From: Anaeroplasmataceae bacterium
Lineage (GTDB): Bacteria > Bacillota_I > Bacilli_A > Acholeplasmatales > Anaeroplasmataceae
Direction of reading: 5' to 3'
Assembly (NCBI GenBank): GCA_029067355.1
Contig: JAIEEQ010000062.1
Coordinates: 1 to 35,999 of the forward strand
Length of the DNA: 35,999 bases
Within the stretch, counting starts at the first letter, position 1; every line of letters starts with the position of its first letter. Of this stretch, positions 8,885 through 34,701 are shown in pieces. The notes under the pieces were generated by a model. That model worked only from the letters and a program-made list of their open reading frames with translations, ran no database searches and was not told the DNA's origin. The translations under genes and the position numbers were made by a program.

Positions 8885-10132
8885 GTCACAATAAACTTAA
8901 GAAAGGAGCCCATACATGGATTATTATACATTAAAATTATTCAAATTAACATATCTTGATGTTGATTTAGAAAAATCTTTTGTCACTCATATTACAAATG
9001 ATAAATCAATATTAAATATATTCTTAAAAACTAAAGTTCAAGCTTGTAAAATTTGTGGTTGTGGTAATATAAAAGTCAGATCTACATCTCAAACTAAAGT
9101 GAATCATTCTATCTATTCAGATCTCAAAGTTGAATTATATATTCATAGAAGGAAATACTTCTGTCCTGATTGTGGTCACTATTTCACTGAAGACAACCCT
9201 ATTGTTTCTTCTAATAGAAATATCTCTATTATGACTGACTTTAGAATACTAGATCTTCTTAAAGATCCTACCAATACCTATTCTAAAGTAGCGAACCTTA
9301 CCTCTACATCTATCACCTATGTTCAAAACATTTTTGACAAGTATATTGATATCAAACTAGGTAAATTATCTACTGTTGTTTGTATTGATGAAGTCTATGC
9401 CAAAAAATTAGTAGATAATAAATATATCTGTATTTGGTATAACCCTTTTGAACGAAAGGTTATTGATGTTTTAGACTCTAGATGGAAATCAGATTTATTA
9501 ATTTGTGTAGATTCCTTCCATGTCATTAAACATCTTAATGACGCCTTTAATCAAGTAAGACTTAGAGTTCAAAAAAGATTTGCTCACCTTAAAAGTGATT
9601 CAAATAGCTATTACTGGTTATATAAGAAATATAATAAGTTTCTTCTAAGAGATTTCTCCAATATTTTCTCTGGTAAAATCAAAGTCAATAGAACTGGTAT
9701 GTTGCTGGATAAATATCAAATTAGAGAATTTATGCTTTCCTTAGATGATGAGCTTAGATTAGCTTACGAGCTAAAAGAGGAATACCGTTCTTTTAATCTC
9801 TCTGCCTCTATTTGTGATGCCAAAGATAGGTTACTTGACCTTATGGATAAATTCAAAGCTTCTAGAATAAAAGAGTTCTATCCATTTATTAGAACTATTA
9901 AAAACTGGTTCGTTGAAATTGTTAATTCCTTCAATCGAATCAATGGTAAAAGAATTTCTAATGGTCCTATGGAAAGAACTAACAGAACAATCAAACAATT
10001 ATTTTATAATGGTTTTGGGTTTACTAATTTCCAAAGAACTCGCAAACGTATTATCTATATTTCTAATCCTGATACACCTCTCTTAGGTGTTCCTAAGCAT
10101 AACAAATAATCTATATTTTTATTTATTGTGAC
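8885..10132 (+). mobile_element. ISL3-family insertion sequence
   Basis: The 11-base inverted repeat GTCACAATAAA at 8885-8895 recurs as its complement at 10122-10132, bracketing one ISL3-type transposase gene. No obvious 8-base target duplication is seen, which fits an old insertion or later rearrangement. Outer ends may extend a few bases further. Confidence 0.7.
8916..10109 (+). CDS. ISL3-family transposase with apparent internal deletion
   Basis: 397 residues. The N-terminal zinc ribbon (C44-C47, C83-x2-C86) and the DDE domain are recognisable: VCIDE at 155-159 gives the first Asp, ICVDSFHVIKHLND at 196-209 is a typical block, and the closing Glu is E353 in NGPMERTNRTIK. The stretch that normally separates the first two blocks, roughly 40 residues carrying a second conserved Asp, is missing: FERKVIDVLDSRWKSDLL runs straight into ICVDSF with the frame kept. 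The protein is therefore probably inactive, although it would be translated (GAAAGGAG before the ATG). The deletion is inferred from memory of the family, not from an alignment. Confidence 0.8.
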   Translation: MDYYTLKLFKLTYLDVDLEKSFVTHITNDKSILNIFLKTKVQACKICGCGNIKVRSTSQTKVNHSIYSDLKVELYIHRRKYFCPDCGHYFTEDNPIVSSNRNISIMTDFRILDLLKDPTNTYSKVANLTSTSITYVQNIFDKYIDIKLGKLSTVVCIDEVYAKKLVDNKYICIWYNPFERKVIDVLDSRWKSDLLICVDSFHVIKHLNDAFNQVRLRVQKRFAHLKSDSNSYYWLYKKYNKFLLRDFSNIFSGKIKVNRTGMLLDKYQIREFMLSLDDELRLAYELKEEYRSFNLSASICDAKDRLLDLMDKFKASRIKEFYPFIRTIKNWFVEIVNSFNRINGKRISNGPMERTNRTIKQLFYNGFGFTNFQRTRKRIIYISNPDTPLLGVPKHNK

Positions 10133-10719
10133 CCAGATAAAAAACCGCCAAATTTTAGTACTTTTTATGTACTATTTTTGACGGCTTTTTTGGCTCTCGT
10201 TTAAAGCTTTGTTCTCTATTTTTTATTGCTTTGTACTGAGTTACGGAAAGCTTGTTTTCTCCCCACACCCCTCAGAATTTAAAGAACCGTGTACTCTTAA
10301 GATGTCTTAAGCCTACTGAAATAATACCTCCAAAAAAGGTTAGGCTTACTGAAGTAATACCAATTTTAATGAAAATTAAAGAAAAATATACAGGTTAAGC
10401 CCCTTACAATTTAATAAAAGTGATTCGTTTCCTAATTTATTTACTATGTGACCGATTTTCTATTTTTCTTCTGATACAAATATTTAATGATAATAGCTGT
10501 TTTAGTAAGTTCTAAATCTATTATAGTTGACAAATGTTTGTTCGATAGAATTGATTAAGAGTAATCACTTTTCCTCACTTAACAACTATCCCTACACTGC
10601 TGATGAACACTAAGCGAATTTTACCATGTCTCTTCCCATTTCAATTTGAATTTCGAATTTATAATTTTTTTCAAAAAAGCAAAGAAATTATTACCAATTG
10701 AAAAAATTCGTACCATTAA
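10133..10719. other. Gene-free decayed stretch after the insertion sequence
   Basis: No intact gene. An imperfect hairpin followed by T's (10147-10190) may terminate the transposase transcript. An 18-19 base direct repeat (GCCTACTGAAATAATACC at 10311-10328 and GCTTACTGAAGTAATACC near 10344-10361) lies inside a short open frame without a start (ending at a TAA near 10399) that encodes a lysine-rich peptide. Several other short coding-like pieces occur on both strands. This looks like the worn remains of mobile DNA. Confidence 0.5.
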
Positions 10720-11895
10720 CTATTTTAAGGCTAATTGAAGAATTTTATATATGTCACTTGAATTAACTTTTACAAGATTGCCAATGTGAGTCCTATTAAT
10801 TAAAGCATTTTTTGAAATAATATCAAAATATTCTTCTCCTATATTTATTTCATATAATCGCGTAGGCAAACCTAATTCCTTATAAAATTCTTCTAATTTG
10901 CGTATTCCATTCAATATGGTATCTTCCTGCGTCAAAGATTCTTCCACACCAAAAACGTTCTTGGCAAAGGAAACAAAAATTTCTTTTCCTTTACCAAGAC
11001 TATGAATGTACTTCATCCATGCAGGAAAAATAATTGCAAGTCCTGCACCATGTGAAACATTATTTATTGCCGATAGCTCATGCTCAATGTTATGTGACGC
11101 CCAATCACCTATTCTTCCAACAGAAAATATCCCATTATGTGCATATATTGCAGCCAGACTCATTTCGGCTCGCAATGAATAATCATATTTATTCCGCATT
11201 ATTTTTTTACTATTATCAATGTGCGATTTCATTGCACCTTCAAGTATGTGATTAGTGAAATCAACACCTTGAACAGATGTAAAATAGCGTTCCATCATAT
11301 GTGCTAAAATATCACAAGCACCATTTGCAATTTGTTCATTAGGTAAAGAATAAGTAAATTCAGGATCAATAATTGCAAATTTAGGTAGCATAACTTCAGA
11401 GCAGGCATCACGCTTTAATTTAGAAATTTCATCAGTAATAACAGCTCCATTAGAAGATTCACTACCTGCAGCAGGTATAGTTAATACAACACCTATAGGC
11501 AGTGCTTTTTTAATAGTTTTACTACTATCCATAAAGTAACTCCAAATATCACTATTATAAACAGCACATGCCAAACATTTTGCAGAATCAATTACGCTTC
11601 CGCCACCAATAGCCAAAACAAAATCAACCCCTTTTGATTTTGAAATTTCAGCACCTTTAAGAGCATGTTGCAAATGAGGATTGACAACCACTCCACCAAA
11701 CTCAATAAATTCTATGTTATTTTCTAGTAAAGTTTTTTTTACTGATTCTAAAATCCCATTTTTTTTTATAGATTCCCCTCCATAATGAAGGAGAACCTTA
11801 CTTCCACCACTTGTTTTAATCATTAATGCTAATGATTCCATACTGCCCTTTCCAAAAATTATCCTAGTAGGATTATAAAATTCAAAATTTTCCAT
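10720..11895 (-). CDS. Iron-containing alcohol dehydrogenase (butanol dehydrogenase type)
   Basis: 391 residues, the normal length for group III alcohol dehydrogenases of the BdhA/YqhD branch. It should reduce aldehydes to alcohols with NAD(P)H. The dinucleotide loop GGGSVID is at 97-103, and the metal ligands D195 and H199 (CDILAHMMERYF), H268 (DWASHNIEHELS) and H282 (VSHGAGLAI) are all present, so it looks active. It is the last gene of a five-gene operon headed by an SDR enzyme. AAGGAG lies correctly before the ATG. Its physiological substrate is unknown; in this context it may act on a product of the kinase and eIF2B-like partners. Confidence 0.85.
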   Translation of the reverse strand: MENFEFYNPTRIIFGKGSMESLALMIKTSGGSKVLLHYGGESIKKNGILESVKKTLLENNIEFIEFGGVVVNPHLQHALKGAEISKSKGVDFVLAIGGGSVIDSAKCLACAVYNSDIWSYFMDSSKTIKKALPIGVVLTIPAAGSESSNGAVITDEISKLKRDACSEVMLPKFAIIDPEFTYSLPNEQIANGACDILAHMMERYFTSVQGVDFTNHILEGAMKSHIDNSKKIMRNKYDYSLRAEMSLAAIYAHNGIFSVGRIGDWASHNIEHELSAINNVSHGAGLAIIFPAWMKYIHSLGKGKEIFVSFAKNVFGVEESLTQEDTILNGIRKLEEFYKELGLPTRLYEINIGEEYFDIISKNALINRTHIGNLVKVNSSDIYKILQLALK

Positions 11896-11916
11896 TTATT
11901 AGTCTCCTTTTTTTAT

Positions 11917-13119
11917 TTAATATGGAAATATATCCACATAAAATTTTCTGTTACAATTGGGAAATTCAAGTTCAAATTCATCTACTTCGTCTATGATTTT
12001 TGTTTTATCAAATTTTATAACTTGTTCTACAAATTTAATAAAACAAGGAATCTCTTTTTTTGCTTGAGGCCAAAATTCATTCACAACATCATTTAAATGA
12101 TTGAAATAAAAATTTTCATCATCATACTTAAATCTATATCTATACGCATTAGGGTGTAAAATATGGTAAGCCATTTTCCTTCCACCAAAACGCAAAAAAC
12201 GAATTATAAATGTTATAGCTATTTCTTTCCCATCAATGTTAAAATCTTTATTGTTCCAAATTAAATCTTTAGCTTTAGGCATCTCTAACCAATTAATTTC
12301 ATGACATGAAAAACCTATAGGATCATCATATTTTGATGTTAAATCTTGACACGACGAAAAATCAAAATCTATTATTGGACAATTAAGTAAGTCTTTATAC
12401 TCTCCGCTTTTTAGCATCTCAACAAATTTACTAAGTCTTTTTTCATCTGCCATAAGAACATTTTTATCAACATCTAAATAATGCTCCAAATAAAGCTTGG
12501 GATAATATAAAACCATATTCTTTGTTGTTGAATCTCTAAATGGGACAGTTGCCATTCGATTAAATTCATTTATTATATATGGAAGATCATGACTAAATAA
12601 TTCTTCATGTATATCTAATTTCATAATCTCACAAAGCATTTTTACAAGATCAACCAGTTTTTGCTGAGGATAAATTTTTTTTGATTGTTTTTTTTGGGCC
12701 AATTTTATTAATGCTGATTGTATATTAATTTGATTTTGTCTACATCTTTGATACAAAAAAGTTTTTAATTCTTTAGTTTGCTCGTTTAATCCTAAATTCA
12801 TTTTATCAATTTTTCTTAAGTAAGCCAAAACATTATAGACACGAATACCATCAAAATATTCAATATCTAAATATGACACTTCTTGTTTGTCTTCTAGCAA
12901 TATGCTGCCATTGCCAAAAATACGTGGCACACACCCAGCTTTAGATTGCAATAAAAAATTTATAACCTCTATTTCTGTCGCATATTCTTCTTTGGAGGTA
13001 TTGTATTTACGCATAATTTTTCCAGATATACTATCTGGATAAGGCAGTATTTCTATTTCCCTTTGGTCTTTACATAAATCATCTCGAAAAAGTTTTAGAA
13101 TTTCTTTTGAAAATTTCAT
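11917..13119 (-). CDS. Kinase-fold (APH/choline-kinase-like) phosphotransferase
   Basis: 400 residues, cytosolic. I do not recognise the exact family, but the layout is that of the small-molecule kinase fold: an N-lobe with a conserved Glu region (TEIEVINFLLQSKAGCVP, about 48-65) and a linker strand YLDIEYFDG (83-91), then a catalytic loop FRDSTTKNMVL (194-204) and a metal-binding IIDFDFSS (249-256). RD-x4-N plus DFD corresponds to HxDxxxxN plus DxE/DFG in aminoglycoside, choline and methylthioribose kinases, so catalysis is plausible. It starts ten bases after the SIR2/eIF2B fusion with AGGTGA upstream. A kinase beside an eIF2B/MtnA-like protein recalls the MtnK-MtnA pair of methylthioribose salvage, suggesting a phosphorylated sugar or nucleoside as substrate. 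That is inference. Confidence 0.55.
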   Translation of the reverse strand: MKFSKEILKLFRDDLCKDQREIEILPYPDSISGKIMRKYNTSKEEYATEIEVINFLLQSKAGCVPRIFGNGSILLEDKQEVSYLDIEYFDGIRVYNVLAYLRKIDKMNLGLNEQTKELKTFLYQRCRQNQINIQSALIKLAQKKQSKKIYPQQKLVDLVKMLCEIMKLDIHEELFSHDLPYIINEFNRMATVPFRDSTTKNMVLYYPKLYLEHYLDVDKNVLMADEKRLSKFVEMLKSGEYKDLLNCPIIDFDFSSCQDLTSKYDDPIGFSCHEINWLEMPKAKDLIWNNKDFNIDGKEIAITFIIRFLRFGGRKMAYHILHPNAYRYRFKYDDENFYFNHLNDVVNEFWPQAKKEIPCFIKFVEQVIKFDKTKIIDEVDEFELEFPNCNRKFYVDIFPY

Positions 13120-13129
13120 ATTTTTTCAC

Positions 13130-14899
13130 CTATAAAGTTTCATCAATCAGTTTTACATCAATTTTCTCATCATTGCAATCAAAAATCTGATTTTCACTCA
13201 CAAGTTTTACCCCTTTATAAAACAAGCAATAATCATACCCAATGTTCCTAGTTTGAATATTCATTTTTTTTGCCCAAAGAGCAAAATTGAAATCTTTGTA
13301 TATTGTGCTCTCATGTCCATATGAAATTGCATATTCATATTGTTTTTCTATTGAGTTATATGTTGCCTCAGTAAATTTACCGCTCTCAGCTACAACTATT
13401 ACAGAAATTTGAAATTGTTTAGCAATTGACATTATTGCAGCAGAACCACATGTATTTATGAAACTTATAGGCCTTTCTTTATAAAAAACAACATCATGTG
13501 CTCCGAGAATAACCAAATCAATTAACCCTCTGCTTAACAAATTAAATGCAGCCATATCTGGAATAATAGTTATGTGATGAGAGGCAACTAGCCCATTACA
13601 TAACCTTTCACCCATATCCATAGCATCTCTAAAAGGCGTTTCACTTTTCGGACGACATTCACATATATAGATATTGCTTTCTCGCAAAAAACTATCATCC
13701 GCACCAAATAAGAATTCTGCCACACGCAGACTTTGAGAAAAAAGCAAAATATTTTTATATTCTTTAATTGAAGAAGATGAAAGTAATATACTACCATTAT
13801 TTTGAATTCCCTCTGAAATGTCTTCTCTTTTTCGTTTTTCTTCTCTCACAATTCTTTCTAAAAACTGTCGTCTCGTTTGACCTGAAAGTAAATTGGTCTT
13901 AATTGCAATCCAACATTTTACAAAAGCATTGAAATTTGGTTTAAGCATTTTTAAAGCTGAAACATTCCTGTCATATTTATCAATAATTATAGTAATATCC
14001 AAACCTGCACTAATGTCTGATTGTAATTGATTTATTAATAGTTCTACAGCCTGTGTTTCTGTAGGCGTACTAGCCATATTAAATAATTCAGTAACAAAAT
14101 GATTATCGCTCTGATTCATACTAAAAATTTTTTTCAAAAGTTCACTAGAAGAGATGATTTTATCCAAAAAACGATCGCTAGACAAATTTACTATTTTCAT
14201 TCTATTTTCTTCATCATTATAAATAGACTCGAACTGCATATCATCATTAGGGACAAAGGCTATATTTATAGTCGAGGTAAAATAATCGTCACCTAGTAGT
14301 CCTCTAAGATATTTGCCAATTTCCTTATATCCTTGATAATCTTTATTAAAACCTAAATAAATAAGACGCCTACCGCTAAGCAAAATTCTTAGCAAAACTT
14401 CGCTTTCTGAATCTAATCCCACACAATCATCTTTTTCTTTTGAACTACGATTCAATAAGAATACAGGCACATCTCCATGTTGAATATCAAAACTTCTTGA
14501 AGATTCAGGTTTTACAATAAATGCTCTACTTCCTAAATCCGATATAGCATTACATATATTGGAATATTCATCAGTTGTTATATAAGCAGAAAAAGGAAGT
14601 TTAACTAGCTCCTTTATTTTAGATGGTATTACTGAAACAGAAATTTCTTCATGCAACTTATTTTCCAAAATTGGTTTTCCTTGTTGTGCTAAACTCTCCC
14701 ATTTTTCGTAAACCGTATTCCCTATTCCACTTCTAAAATTCATCAAATATTCATTCATACATGGTCCAATTACCGCTACGCAATTTTGTGCAAACATCTC
14801 ATCTTCAACTACTGCAAGAAGTTTATCCATTTCTGAAATTTTTTCTATATTTTGAAGTTCATTATTTTCTTTTACTAAACTTGCAAATCCTTGTTTCAT
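13130..14899 (-). CDS. SIR2-like / eIF2B-like fusion protein
   Basis: 589 residues, two domains. Residues about 35-250 resemble SIR2_2-type domains: VAVIGP (41-46) at the GAG position, YEKWESL (64-70), LPFSAYITTDEYSNI (101-115) at the usual TTNYD position, and LIYLGFNKDY (179-188) for LGYSLRD. The glycine loop, the Asn of TTN and the usual His are altered, so NADase activity is doubtful. Residues about 270-570 resemble the eIF2B-alpha/MtnA/ribose-bisphosphate isomerase family: a helical region, ILLFSQSLRVAEFL (384-397), ICECRPKSE (412-420), DLVILGAHDVV (461-471), INTCGSAAI (481-489) and VVAESGKF (502-509). The Cys expected in the isomerase loop of MtnA is absent, so a ligand-sensing role is possible. 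Start ATG overlaps the preceding stop as ATGA, with GGAGG upstream. I know of no such fusion. Confidence 0.6.
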   Translation of the reverse strand: MKQGFASLVKENNELQNIEKISEMDKLLAVVEDEMFAQNCVAVIGPCMNEYLMNFRSGIGNTVYEKWESLAQQGKPILENKLHEEISVSVIPSKIKELVKLPFSAYITTDEYSNICNAISDLGSRAFIVKPESSRSFDIQHGDVPVFLLNRSSKEKDDCVGLDSESEVLLRILLSGRRLIYLGFNKDYQGYKEIGKYLRGLLGDDYFTSTINIAFVPNDDMQFESIYNDEENRMKIVNLSSDRFLDKIISSSELLKKIFSMNQSDNHFVTELFNMASTPTETQAVELLINQLQSDISAGLDITIIIDKYDRNVSALKMLKPNFNAFVKCWIAIKTNLLSGQTRRQFLERIVREEKRKREDISEGIQNNGSILLSSSSIKEYKNILLFSQSLRVAEFLFGADDSFLRESNIYICECRPKSETPFRDAMDMGERLCNGLVASHHITIIPDMAAFNLLSRGLIDLVILGAHDVVFYKERPISFINTCGSAAIMSIAKQFQISVIVVAESGKFTEATYNSIEKQYEYAISYGHESTIYKDFNFALWAKKMNIQTRNIGYDYCLFYKGVKLVSENQIFDCNDEKIDVKLIDETL

Positions 14900-15552
14900 T
14901 CATTGTTTTCCTCCTTGCCTTTTCTCGCATGTTTAACTTCCATTAATTCAAGAAGTTGCTTTAAAAATTTTTCTAATTCATTTTTATCCAACTTTACTCT
15001 ATTTAAAATCACATTGCAATACTGTGCAATACTGGATAATTGGCTTTTAATTTCAGTATCAGTTTTTAATATAGAAAGAGAACCAGTTTGAAATGACACA
15101 AGTTGTGAAAGATATATATTTGTATACATTTCGCCCCATTTATTAAACTCATTGATATTGTTATAAAAATCAAAGATTTTATTATACCACAAAAACACAA
15201 TAGCATGCTTTTTCAGTCTCTTTTTCTTTTGCAGATATTTGTCCAATCTCGCAAGAGATTGACCCAGGCTTCCCCTTAAAATACCATCCCATATTGGAGT
15301 TTCAATTCTATTTTTATTAGGTTCGCAGGCATCAATATTAGATCTTCCCAGTGCTTCATTTATATTATTAATTTCTTTAACAATACTTTCTATGCAGAAC
15401 ACTCCATCGTTCAATTCCTTTTTACCATCGCTATATTTTTGTAACCACATTGCAATATATAGACCAAAAATCGTGATAATAAGTCCAACTAGAGTATCTA
15501 GCCACCATGGCATATCAATTAACCATTCAACACAAAATACATAAGGAATCAT
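14896..15552 (-). CDS. One-pass membrane protein with coiled coil
   Basis: 218 residues. One hydrophobic segment near the N-terminus (about 17-37, LDTLVGLIITIFGLYIAMWL), then a long charged helical region with heptad character to the end. The basic KYSDGKK after the segment suggests a cytosolic C-terminal domain. Family not recognised. AAAGGAGG is placed perfectly before the ATG, and its stop overlaps the SIR2/eIF2B start by four bases, implying stoichiometric expression and a likely physical partnership at the membrane. Confidence 0.55.
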   Translation of the reverse strand: MIPYVFCVEWLIDMPWWLDTLVGLIITIFGLYIAMWLQKYSDGKKELNDGVFCIESIVKEINNINEALGRSNIDACEPNKNRIETPIWDGILRGSLGQSLARLDKYLQKKKRLKKHAIVFLWYNKIFDFYNNINEFNKWGEMYTNIYLSQLVSFQTGSLSILKTDTEIKSQLSSIAQYCNVILNRVKLDKNELEKFLKQLLELMEVKHARKGKEENNE

Positions 15553-15573
15553 ATTTGCCTCCTTTTGAAGAAT

Positions 15574-16257
15574 TTATTTTCTTTCTATTATGATATCAGA
15601 AACATACATCGTTTTTTGTTCATCTACACTGAAAATAATTTGTCTAGCTACTTCATTAGGATCCATAAATTTGTTAACATCTGGATTCATACCGCATTGT
15701 GCACTCCAAAATGGCGTATTCATCCCACCTGGATAAACTCCAACGACATGAATATTTGTTTTTTTGTAATATGCCTTTAAAGCTTCAGTAAATCCTCTTA
15801 TTGCCCACTTTGAAGCACAATATAATGATTCATTAGGATTTCCCCTCAATCCAGCAGTTGACATAATATTAATTATAAATCCGCCACTACTCATACGACG
15901 ACACGCTTCATAAGTTATACACATTAAGCCAATCACATTAGCGTCAATAACTTTATAAATTTTATCTTTATTCATATCCTCTGGGATGCCAAAAATACCA
16001 ATGCCAGCACAATTATACAAGTAATTTACATAATATCCCTTATCTTGCAAATTATCAAAAACTTGCTTTATAAATGCTTCATCATCCACATTACCAGAAT
16101 ATCCAATGATATTACCTCCTAATTCTTTTATGGTTTGTTGAATTTTCGTTTCATCGCGAGCAATAATGCAAACATTTTGGCTTCTTCTTATAAGTTCTCT
16201 AGCAAGTTCTTTACCTAAACCTGAAGAGCCTCCAGTAATTATAGAAATTTGTTTCAT
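15574..16257 (-). CDS. Short-chain dehydrogenase/reductase
   Basis: 227 residues, classical SDR. The cofactor loop TGGSSGLG is at 8-15, NCAG at 82-85, and the catalytic tetrad is complete (N107, S133, Y146, K150), with PGG at 176-178. Arg34 after the second strand suggests NADPH preference. It should be an active oxidoreductase on a carbonyl or alcohol. It is the first gene of the five-gene operon, 21 bases before the membrane protein gene, with AGGAG eight bases before its ATG. The substrate is not evident. Confidence 0.85.
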   Translation of the reverse strand: MKQISIITGGSSGLGKELARELIRRSQNVCIIARDETKIQQTIKELGGNIIGYSGNVDDEAFIKQVFDNLQDKGYYVNYLYNCAGIGIFGIPEDMNKDKIYKVIDANVIGLMCITYEACRRMSSGGFIINIMSTAGLRGNPNESLYCASKWAIRGFTEALKAYYKKTNIHVVGVYPGGMNTPFWSAQCGMNPDVNKFMDPNEVARQIIFSVDEQKTMYVSDIIIERK

Positions 16258-16324: not shown

Positions 16325-16368
16325 TCGACCCCAAAATCGACCGACAAAGTTCGACATTCTATGTCGAA
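16325..16368. promoter_or_regulatory. TCGAC-rich repeat block upstream of the SDR operon
   Basis: The 44 bases hold four CGAC motifs on the plus strand and end in the inverted repeat TTCGACAT/ATGTCGAA (16350-16357 and 16361-16368, three-base gap). It sits between the holin terminator and the operon start, so it may be an operator or a recombination site. No strong -35/-10 pair is visible. Confidence 0.35.
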
Positions 16369-16371
16369 AAG

Positions 16372-16411
16372 AAAAAACCTCCACCCATTAGATGTGTTCT
16401 AACAAGTGGAG
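16372..16411 (-). terminator. Terminator of the prophage late operon
   Basis: CTCCACTTGTTAG (16399-16411) pairs with CTAATGGGTGGAG (16379-16391), including G-U pairs, followed by six T on the minus strand. It ends the late transcript right after the holin gene and separates it from the SDR operon. Confidence 0.8.
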
Positions 16412-16417
16412 TCATTA

Positions 16418-16795
16418 CTAGTTTTTAAGTTTATTAATTGTTGCTTCTATCGATGTGGTAAGCCATAACTGAAGGTCACCATAATTACTTTGAATAAATG
16501 TTTTGACCTCATTGCTCATTTGACTTAAAACTAAGTCCTTTGCTTTTAAAAGGGCTGTCTTTTGCTTCTGTTCATCGAATGTTTTGTCTGTCTTTAACTG
16601 TTCCACATAGACTTGAAAAACCGAGCGTACGGCGTTTACGACCGCTTCTGTGGCCTGTGTTAAAAGGCTCGCTACCTTCTCGTTTTGAATCTTGGAATTA
16701 ATCCAGGAGATTAACTTACTCCCTAGCATAGTAATTAGTGGTATTAGAATTGCAGTGACCACTACACTGATTATATTTAATAAAATATCATTCAC
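16418..16795 (-). CDS. Phage holin, LLH-like family
   Basis: 125 residues: one strongly hydrophobic N-terminal segment (about 4-28, LLNIISVVVTAILIPLITML) followed by amphipathic helices with ALLKAKDLVLSQM. This is the make-up of the LLH-type phage holins, which open the inner membrane at the end of infection. It overlaps the preceding membrane protein by eight bases. It is the last gene of the late operon; no endolysin follows. A broken homologue of its 3' end lies at 8390-8476. Confidence 0.75.
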   Translation of the reverse strand: MNDILLNIISVVVTAILIPLITMLGSKLISWINSKIQNEKVASLLTQATEAVVNAVRSVFQVYVEQLKTDKTFDEQKQKTALLKAKDLVLSQMSNEVKTFIQSNYGDLQLWLTTSIEATINKLKN

Positions 16796-17111
16796 AATTA
16801 CTTCCTCCTTTATGCTTTGTTTTATCGTTGATATGTTCTGTAATTCTTTTGTGTGCTTGGGCTACACTTTCTTCTGTTTTAGTCAGCTGATTTGAAAGCT
16901 GATTATATCTATCTTCTAGCTTGTCCATGTTCTTTTCAATACGATCAATTGAAGATTTAATATAACCCACATCACTGATTAAGACTCCTTCGTTTTTACC
17001 CTCCAGCTTATTGTCTGTTTTGGCATTTCTCTTATAAGCTAGATATGCAAAGACAATAGAGGATACTGTTCCTAACACACTAATGATTGATAATACGATA
17101 GTTGCTTCCAT
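16788..17111 (-). CDS. Small phage membrane protein with coiled coil
   Basis: 107 residues. A hydrophobic N-terminus (about 3-25) and then a coiled coil (SIDRIEKNMDKLEDRYNQL) of the kind found in XhlA-like or lysis-accessory proteins encoded next to holins. It may assist lysis or anchor to the tail region. TAGGAGG precedes the ATG. Confidence 0.55.
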   Translation of the reverse strand: MEATIVLSIISVLGTVSSIVFAYLAYKRNAKTDNKLEGKNEGVLISDVGYIKSSIDRIEKNMDKLEDRYNQLSNQLTKTEESVAQAHKRITEHINDKTKHKGGSNCE

Positions 17112-27597: not shown

Positions 27598-28905
27598 TTA
27601 TTCTTTTATTTCCCAATACCCAGCCTTTGTAGAACCACGATGAATAATTTTATTTTTCTTTTTTAATTGGTCCAAATGATATTTTGCACTATCTTCTGTT
27701 ATTGATAATGCACTTGCTATTTGGATTCTTGTTATTTGTGGATTATTTTTTATTAATTTTAATATTTTTTCTTGGGTGGTTTCTTGGGTGGTTTCTTGGG
27801 TGGTCTGAATGCCAAATCCCGTTCTGTCAAATGGTATAGTCACAATTATAGAGTTTTCATTGAACTTATATGCTTTCTCTCCATACTCTCTTACAACTAT
27901 TGGCACACCGTGTCCAGAATGTTCCACGATATCACATTGTAAAAAAACACTCATTAATTCCTCGTTTACAGGTTGAGTTTCTCCAGATAAAAATCTTTCT
28001 TTTGTCATTCCCTTAGGAATTCCTCCATAAGACATAATTTCTAATCTGTCATCAAACCAAAATACAGCAGGTGGTCTCTTTTCAACCCATTTATTATGAA
28101 CACATGCATTAATCCATGCTTCTTTGAATGCCTCATAGTTAAAAAGTTTCTTTTCTCTTCTAGGACTAACACTTAAGTCAACATACGTTTCATTTAAAGC
28201 ATCACAATAATTTAATACTTTTTCCAAGGAACTTATTAAACATGTATTACCATACTCATTTCTTTTATGAAAATAAGATTTATCTTTTCCTTTAAAAAGA
28301 GCAACTTTAATAGAATACATATTCTCATCAGATAATATTTCAGCCATTAAATTAAATTTACCACTAGGAGCAAGCAAATTAAAATTCTTATAAAATGTTT
28401 CATTACTAATATGAATGTTGTTATTGGATAAATACATTTTAAGAATTCTAAATGTTAAATCCGTTCTCATTGACTCTTGGTTTACTAACTTAGGCTCAGG
28501 TATATTCAAAGTGGCTTCATATCTTTCTTTAATTTCAGCATCATTTAATCCTCTACAACTTGTACCTACTCTAATAAAACAGCCTGCTTCACTTAAACCT
28601 TTAGATTTAATGTAATAAAGACCTGTTCCTTTAGTAACTTCCACCTTAATAATTAACTTGCCCTCTTCTAAAATCGCCATAGGCTTTACAAAGTTTTTAC
28701 AGGATGGATTAATACCATCCACAATTATATTTGAAATAGATTGCAGTGTTTCATCAACATTCTTAACTCCAATAATATCTCCATCATCGGTAATTCCTAG
28801 ATAAATTGTGCCATCATGCGTATTTAAAAAGGCTACTACTTCTCTAGTAAAAGAATCATTCAAGCGTTCTTTTAACTCAATTGATTCAGTTTCAATATAT
28901 TTCAC
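27598..28905 (-). CDS. AlbA_2 (Schlafen-like) DNA-binding protein
   Basis: 435 residues. Residues about 1-125 form the AlbA_2/Schlafen-like domain (TESIELKERLNDSFTREVVAFLNTHDGTIYLGI, GVKNVD, then LSEAGCFIRVGTS). The middle resembles a RecG-like HATPase region (LFNYEAFKEAWINACVHNKW, DRLEIMSYGGIPKG). A three-fold TTQE repeat follows (12-base unit near 27776-27805) and a winged-helix end (ITRIQIASALSITEDSAKYH). Proteins of this type are predicted nucleic-acid-binding regulators, some in defence contexts. The start is GTG with AGGTGA upstream. It has its own promoter and terminators and splits the portal and protease genes, so it looks like an inserted accessory gene. Confidence 0.85.
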   Translation of the reverse strand: MKYIETESIELKERLNDSFTREVVAFLNTHDGTIYLGITDDGDIIGVKNVDETLQSISNIIVDGINPSCKNFVKPMAILEEGKLIIKVEVTKGTGLYYIKSKGLSEAGCFIRVGTSCRGLNDAEIKERYEATLNIPEPKLVNQESMRTDLTFRILKMYLSNNNIHISNETFYKNFNLLAPSGKFNLMAEILSDENMYSIKVALFKGKDKSYFHKRNEYGNTCLISSLEKVLNYCDALNETYVDLSVSPRREKKLFNYEAFKEAWINACVHNKWVEKRPPAVFWFDDRLEIMSYGGIPKGMTKERFLSGETQPVNEELMSVFLQCDIVEHSGHGVPIVVREYGEKAYKFNENSIIVTIPFDRTGFGIQTTQETTQETTQEKILKLIKNNPQITRIQIASALSITEDSAKYHLDQLKKKNKIIHRGSTKAGYWEIKE

Positions 28906-33705: not shown

Positions 33706-34614
33706 TTAGGCACAGCATGGAGCATTGAATCTCCATGCTGAACTTCCACTTAATGCTTTTGTTAAATGCTCTCTGCAATTTTTATAATCCTCTCCAATCA
33801 TCCCAATTCGGTTAAGGTATGTTCTCATTGCGAATTTCTCATTCTCAACTTGTGGCTTTTTCGTTGATGCTGACTTTTGAACTATTGCTTGATGGTTTAA
33901 TGCTAAGGCTAAAACTATGTAACTTCTTACCTTTCCAGCGTGCAACTCGGAATTGAATCCTCTGAGCTCAACTGTGTGATGTCCATTGAAGAAACTATGT
34001 AGGTTTAAGAAATGGTATCTTGAACTATGATAATGTTGTGTTCTACTTCCATTATAACCTTCATACCAAATGTCTTCTAATTGTTTCATTGTTTTAGGTT
34101 TCTTCTTGTTAATTTTTTCGACTAATGCTGCATCCATCTTTTTGCAATATGTCATACGTTCTTGTTTAATTTCTAATGCTTTGTAGAAAAGGTCATTCTT
34201 ACTTGCGATGATGTTTACAAAGTTTTTAATTGTTTTGATTGTGTGGTTTGCTCCATCAAGGTGAATGTGAATTCCACAAGAGCTATTTGTAAATCCTCCT
34301 GCCTTTCTTAAGGATCTAACAATCTCTTGTAGGGTTTGGATGTCTTCTTTGTAGGTTAGAATTGGACTAACCAGTTCGCAACTATAATCTGATGTCTCAC
34401 TTATAACTCTTCCATTAACCTTTCTTTGCGTTGCCAATGAACCATCATACATTACTTTCCAGCTTCTACCATCTAATGTTGTAATTCTCTTTGTATCATA
34501 ATAATCTCTAATATCTGTGATACTTCCGTTTACAATTTGACTTACAACCTCTGCTGCTTTTTTTCTTGTGATTCCTGTGAATTCAATTTCAATTCCAAAT
34601 TTTGTATTTAACAT
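33706..34614 (-). CDS. Amidoligase (COOH-NH2 ligase family)
   Basis: 302 residues from ATG 34614 (AAAGAGGA upstream; the frame stays open into the leader). Family motifs appear in order: FGIEIEFTG (6-14), CELVSP (79-84), SSCGIHIHLD (111-120) and TVELRGFNS (214-222). These metal- and ATP-binding residues define the glutamine-synthetase-like amidoligase_2 group, predicted to join a carboxylate to an amine, for example gamma-glutamyl tagging of peptides or proteins. The neighbouring cyclotransferase fits removal or trimming of such tags. In a phage the target could be a virion or host protein; this is not shown. Confidence 0.85.
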   Translation of the reverse strand: MLNTKFGIEIEFTGITRKKAAEVVSQIVNGSITDIRDYYDTKRITTLDGRSWKVMYDGSLATQRKVNGRVISETSDYSCELVSPILTYKEDIQTLQEIVRSLRKAGGFTNSSCGIHIHLDGANHTIKTIKNFVNIIASKNDLFYKALEIKQERMTYCKKMDAALVEKINKKKPKTMKQLEDIWYEGYNGSRTQHYHSSRYHFLNLHSFFNGHHTVELRGFNSELHAGKVRSYIVLALALNHQAIVQKSASTKKPQVENEKFAMRTYLNRIGMIGEDYKNCREHLTKALSGSSAWRFNAPCCA

Positions 34615-34619
34615 TTTTT

Positions 34620-34701
34620 TATCCTCTTTCTGCCGATTCCTTCGGTCGTGTATATACATCACTCTAAAGAGGATAAATAGCAAGTTATATTTTCACTATA
34701 G
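34620..34701 (-). promoter_or_regulatory. Repeated leader, copy 2
   Basis: A near copy of 33117-33199. Here the arms 34618-34629 and 34666-34677 form a perfect 12-bp stem (AAAGAGGATAAA with TTTATCCTCTTT) that buries the Shine-Dalgarno of the amidoligase. The interior is identical to copy 1 except for one loop base (CCGAAGGAATCGG against CCGAAAGAATCGG). Confidence 0.65.

Follow-up and report, generated by a model that had tools for sequence, protein, structure and literature searches.

A recurrent SDR, SIR2/TIR-eIF2B fusion and kinase gene core, possibly a metabolite-signalled immune-type system, at a prophage edge in an Anaeroplasmataceae bacterium

What purpose is served by an operon that joins a SIR2/eIF2B fusion protein to a kinase-fold protein and two redox enzymes is the question raised by positions 10720-16257 of the DNA analysed here, a stretch of 35,999 nucleotides (hereafter the window) that constitutes one entire contig (JAIEEQ010000062.1, assembly GCA_029067355.1) of the 1.79-Mb genome of an Anaeroplasmataceae bacterium. 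A preliminary description of the window had placed five tightly spaced genes of one strand there, and the open reading frames (ORFs) bear this out, since all five lie intact on the minus strand exactly as described, with successive gaps, in transcription order, of 21, −4 (an overlap at ATGA), 10 and 21 bp, and with a purine-rich sequence resembling a ribosome-binding site (RBS) 5′ of every start. They encode a short-chain dehydrogenase/reductase (SDR; 15574-16257, 227 aa; Pfam adh_short, 1.6e-43), a single-pass membrane protein (14896-15552, 218 aa), the SIR2-eIF2B fusion (13130-14899, 589 aa), a small-molecule kinase resembling the APH superfamily (11917-13119, 400 aa) and an iron-containing alcohol dehydrogenase (Fe-ADH; 10720-11895, 391 aa; Pfam, 4.1e-43; nearest NCBIfam model PRK15138), so that the identities first proposed for the two redox enzymes hold.

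Three of these genes, namely those for the SDR, the (SIR2/TIR)-eIF2B fusion and the kinase, form a real, conserved and apparently undescribed core, a point on which we have next to no doubt. An alignment of the window and congener kinases, used as the query on 84,980 genomes, was required to recover the further loci, because the fusion alone, searched as a single protein against collections of genomes and viruses, yielded only a remote copy in a congener (G003). The loci recovered belong to Clostridiales (L013), Holophagales (L014), Fibrimonadales of the Fibrobacterota (L015), Bacteroidetes (L016) and Clostridia (L018). In the first four, the genes follow the order SDR, SIR2- or TIR-eIF2B fusion, kinase, on one strand and almost touching, and this recurrence of three genes in the same order and on the same strand in four other lineages is more than chance. 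TIR, eIF2B and kinase parts are united in a single polypeptide in L018, and the congener likewise carries a TIR-eIF2B-kinase fusion that reaches the end of contig C7, with the remaining kinase part beginning contig C20; an aldo/keto reductase gene lies upstream of this fusion, with another TIR gene in between. The preliminary description had treated the five genes as one unit; the association of the fusion with the kinase-fold protein proves to be a recurrent one with an immune-like effector, and the SDR recurs with them, but the Fe-ADH is absent from the other loci and the membrane protein has no detectable relative. Homologues of the three core genes are thus found together, in a combination that no known catabolic pathway explains.

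The core also appears to have diverged as a unit. Pairwise identities of the SDR, the eIF2B part and the kinase correlate at r = 0.91-0.94 (ten non-independent pairs from five loci), the pattern expected from joint inheritance, and the window and Clostridiales copies are sisters in all three. Additionally, a HAD phosphatase gene stands directly upstream of the SDR gene in L013, L014 and L016 (three of the four SDR loci); its representatives come from two HAD subfamilies, which suggests that the function of this slot matters rather than the individual protein.

The distribution of the system is sporadic, and it appears to have spread horizontally. The kinase is present in 2 of 395 genomes sampled from the class of the window and in 2 of 392 from its phylum (about 0.5% or less), in the seed genome only within samples of 201, 298 and 191 genomes around three other loci, and as one weak partial match in a sample of 191 genomes around a fourth; a weak kinase match of 68 positions was recorded in genome G1295 (L035). 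It was not found in phage, plasmid or IMG/VR collections. Several candidate relatives were set aside: two weak ones (L003 and L004) are chance matches to unrelated exported proteins, the SDR relatives from IMG/VR (L036-L073) are generic SDRs with neither kinase nor eIF2B nearby, and the plasmid matches to the fusion, among those listed, cover essentially the SIR2 part only. No description of eIF2B joined to SIR2 or to TIR in a bacterial defence setting emerged from the literature, within a search that covered subscription papers thinly.

The second half of the fusion (residues about 324-589; 13133-13930, minus strand) is a predicted eIF2B-like ligand-sensor domain. Pfam IF-2B covers residues 335-522 (9.6e-13), the second half of a five-row profile of fusions matches eIF2B subunits, R15P isomerase and MtnA, and the AlphaFold model (mean predicted local distance difference test score, pLDDT, 74) matches eIF2B in Foldseek at 1.9e-11, the matches including the sugar-phosphate-bound eIF2B alpha entries 7KMA and 7KMF. 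The catalytic Cys of the isomerases is replaced by S388 and the catalytic Asp by H468, the latter position across the seven copies being either H or, in the TIR-kinase fusions, C. G466, N482 and K508 are invariant in the seven sequences and correspond to G196, N208 and K234 of eIF2B alpha (the N482/N208 and K508/K234 equivalences come from hidden Markov model alignments with 1vb5 and eIF2B), residues that contact fructose 6-phosphate in a protein whose ligands are sugar phosphates (PMC8187479). Because the isomerase residues are lost while these sugar- and phosphate-binding positions are invariant, the domain probably senses a phosphorylated metabolite.

The first half varies among loci. In the window it is a degenerate SIR2 domain (residues about 30-250; 14150-14812, minus strand), which Pfam does not detect, although the SIR2 half of the five-row profile matches ThsA (7uxt, 4.9e-25), DSR2 and KomC. 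For L014, L015 and L016, PADLOC models of ThsA give matches of about 1e-26 to 1e-29 that are confined to the SIR2 part (model PDLC00407 is covered over about positions 10-232 of 478), these SIR2 parts also match the Dsr2 and LmuA models, and all three keep the GAGxS motif with the catalytic Asn and His. In the window, GAGxS reads GPCMN, the Asn is D110 and the His is N150. Mutation of the equivalent ThsA residues (N112A, H152A) abolishes NADase activity (PMC7272460), and the window SIR2 is, on these residues, a pseudo-enzyme. The SIR2 of the Clostridiales locus likewise lacks GAGxS and both catalytic residues, and the two dead regions share 44% identity, which implies that the inactive state is old and maintained. 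TIR replaces SIR2 altogether in L018 and in the congener, and in L013 a TIR precedes the dead SIR2. At the same junction between SDR and fusion, the window carries its membrane gene, which shares four bases with the fusion gene; we read this as an exchange of effector modules, the membrane gene standing where L013 has its TIR. Its product has one strongly hydrophobic stretch (residues about 17-38, hydropathy peak 1.89), in agreement with the membrane assignment made at the outset, and occurs at the window locus only, no relative being detectable in the collections searched.

The two enzymes of the core are probably active, since both retain catalytic motifs. The SDR tetrad N107, S133, Y146 and K150 is present and conserved, and the best SDR match in each related genome is the SDR of the locus itself (67/43/43/37% identity, as against no more than 32% for other SDRs). 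The kinase has neither a Pfam match nor a significant sequence match to solved kinases, and its identity to relatives is 27-53% (52% for the Clostridiales copy). Its AlphaFold model is confident (pLDDT 87.8) and looks like a small-molecule kinase of the APH type, with 25-hydroxysteroid kinase, glucosamine kinase, APH(2'') and maltokinase as top Foldseek matches (probability up to 1.00, best E weak at 3e-3). The loop FRD(A/S)TxKNM and the motif DFDFSS have the spacing of the HxDxxxxN and DxD motifs of APH-type kinases, as R195-D196-x4-N201 and D251-F-D253, with Phe/Arg in place of the His of HxD; D196, K200, N201 and D253 are invariant among relatives. The Fe-ADH, in contrast, is outside the conserved core because the other loci lack it and the window genome holds four paralogues of it elsewhere; it has no match in the L013 genome. 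A further accessory part is an isonitrile-synthase-like domain of the L-Tyr/L-Trp type (9dh4, weak, 8e-4), found at L014 (11125-12156) and in the C-terminal part of a protein at L016 (5701-7521), thereby spanning two phyla and being fused once to a HAD phosphatase. L-tyrosine/L-tryptophan isonitrile synthases use a pentulose phosphate.

Surroundings of a defence type were found at two loci. The Bacteroidetes copy (L016) has SEFIR/TIR, PADLOC 'cll' and RES proteins as neighbours, and the congener copy has several TIR proteins, a TIR-NACHT-LRR protein and ThsB-like proteins. The latter copy sits inside a dense run of TIR-protein genes (2260-6168 of L010 and 9545-10867 of L005), which is possibly an immune island.

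These features could be joined in a rare, apparently undescribed immune-type system, signalled by a metabolite and acting by abortive infection, in which the eIF2B domain would gate NADase or membrane effectors; we give this reading about an even chance. The kinase, together with the SDR and the phosphatase, would make, modify or remove a small phosphorylated metabolite of a sugar- or nucleoside-like kind. This metabolite would be bound by the eIF2B-type domain, which seems to have lost its isomerase chemistry and kept part of the sugar/phosphate pocket, and binding might shift the oligomeric state of the domain and so activate the effector joined to it. For most copies this would be the SIR2 or TIR NADase, depleting NAD+ and aborting the infection, whereas in the window the overlapping one-pass membrane protein would be the likely substitute for the pseudo-enzyme SIR2. 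Several observations weigh against such a system. The loci number only seven (the window, L013, L014, L015, L016, L018 and G003), one of them split between two contigs; PADLOC recognised none of the window genes; L013 and L018 lie in no obvious defence island, and beyond L016 and G003 the context is a prophage edge for the window copy and nothing clearly defensive for the others. Furthermore, two pocket residues of eIF2B alpha (PMC8187479) are not kept: its sugar ligand Glu198 is H or C here, and its phosphate-coordinating Arg132 has no clear counterpart in the seven aligned sequences, which would allow for a ligand other than a hexose phosphate.

The same enzymes could equally serve a biosynthetic pathway. 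In a cluster for a specialised metabolite or nucleotide sugar, the SIR2/TIR, eIF2B, SDR, kinase, HAD and, at two loci, isonitrile-synthase-like parts would act serially on a substrate derived from NAD or a sugar phosphate, yielding for instance a molecule of warfare or signalling. This principal rival draws on the intact catalytic residues of SDR and kinase, on the single slot shared by phosphatases of two subfamilies, on the isonitrile-synthase-like domain (L014 and L016) and on the three reductase folds seen across the loci (SDR, Fe-ADH and aldo/keto). It nevertheless has to accommodate an eIF2B domain that lacks both isomerase catalytic residues in every copy, an interchange of SIR2 and TIR and a loss of the window SIR2 site that suit an effector better than they suit a pathway enzyme, and loci without a transporter, ligase or further assembly enzymes, and we regard it as possible yet doubtful.

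The window copy might alternatively be degenerate, having lost its NADase to become either a remnant or an operon redirected to metabolism (SDR and Fe-ADH, for aldehyde detoxification) at the prophage edge. The vanished SIR2 active site, the gain of an Fe-ADH and the insertion sequence adjoining the operon speak for decay, but five intact, closely spaced ORFs with good RBS and the strictly conserved eIF2B and kinase motifs do not, and the dead SIR2 is shared with L013 and hence old and maintained; we consider decay unlikely. Least probable of all, indeed very improbable, is a sugar-alcohol catabolic operon composed of a kinase, an isomerase of the eIF2B family and two dehydrogenases. MtnK (APH superfamily) and MtnA (eIF2B family) are a recognised kinase/isomerase pair, which counts in favour of this option, as does the return of small-molecule kinases by Foldseek for the fourth gene. 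The preliminary description had offered such a dedicated pathway as one of two readings, and it is weakened because both catalytic residues of MtnA and R15P isomerase are gone from the fusion; it would, moreover, leave the SIR2/TIR fusions without explanation, the Fe-ADH is not conserved across loci, and the operon contains neither a sugar transporter nor a regulator.

Comparison with described systems places the proposed immune-type system close to Thoeris. Judged by its domains, the fusion has the layout of ThsA, a ThsA-type SIR2 at the N-terminus joined to a C-terminal nucleotide- or metabolite-binding domain, with an eIF2B-type domain replacing SLOG. Thoeris effectors alternate within one family between a SIR2-SLOG NADase and a transmembrane-macro form (PMC11204291), an alternation of SIR2 and membrane effector that resembles the one between the window and its relatives. 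However, the sensor here is of the eIF2B type instead of SLOG (STALD) or macro; the partners are an SDR, a kinase and a HAD phosphatase instead of the separate ThsB, no TIR (ThsB) gene being present in the window operon; and the catalytic Asn and His of ThsA-type SIR2 occur in L014, L015 and L016 but not in the window. DSR1/DSR2, LmuA and KomC share a related SIR2 NADase domain, yet to our knowledge have neither an eIF2B domain nor a kinase/SDR operon. The regulatory core of eIF2B alpha, beta and delta has the same fold, a similar loss of catalytic residues and the retained G, N and K pocket residues, and the GAHA motif of the fusion is as in human eIF2B delta; unlike that core, the bacterial domain is fused to SIR2 or TIR and has no nucleotide-exchange partners, apart from the pocket differences from eIF2B alpha given above. 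MtnK/MtnA offer the same pairing of a kinase fold with an eIF2B fold acting on sugar phosphates, but the fusion is devoid of the isomerase Cys and Asp, and the kinase belongs to a distinct family.

Within the window, the operon is preceded by prophage late genes (terminase, portal, protease, capsid, tail and holin-like). It had been placed at the end of the late operon, a placement that does not survive: the operon is predicted to be a separate transcription unit on the prophage edge because a strong Rho-independent terminator (16379-16411, minus strand; a stem of 14 pairs with a run of T after it), 3′ of the holin-like genes, stands between the two. Between this terminator and the SDR start lies a perfect palindrome, TTCGACAT-TCT-ATGTCGAA (16350-16368), matched once in the window, where 0.12 matches would be expected by chance at up to three mismatches; it may be an operator. 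The other flank holds an ISL3-type transposase gene and a queuosine-precursor operon, and the DUF5655 remnant previously reported beside the operon was not detected in 10110-10720, where read-through minus-strand frames were considered and the region was partly covered. The phage late region itself starts with a putative amidoligase gene (33706-34683, minus strand; Amidoligase_2, 3e-75) and closes with two small membrane/coiled-coil holin-like genes (16418-17111), with no endolysin gene recognised between these and the terminator. Its head module includes a gene for a Schlafen AlbA_2 and HATPase protein (27598-28905, minus strand), flanked by prohead protease and portal, in an unusual position that possibly marks an anti-host or anti-phage insert.

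A broader generalisation, which we advance tentatively and consider less probable than the immune-type system itself, would be a new class of immune signalling in which a dedicated kinase, an oxidoreductase and a phosphatase control a phosphorylated, sugar-like second messenger, and an eIF2B-type sensor drives interchangeable SIR2, TIR and membrane effectors, so that the eIF2B fold would serve as a metabolite alarm sensor both in bacterial immunity and in the eukaryotic stress response. A sensor that stays constant while its SIR2, TIR and membrane modules are exchanged leads to predictions that are open to simple bench assays. If the proposal is correct, the eIF2B fold would be added to the sensor classes of bacterial immunity, a phosphorylated small metabolite from a dedicated kinase, SDR and phosphatase would probably be added to its messenger classes, and a parallel would emerge with the eukaryotic integrated stress response, in which eIF2B alpha senses sugar phosphates.

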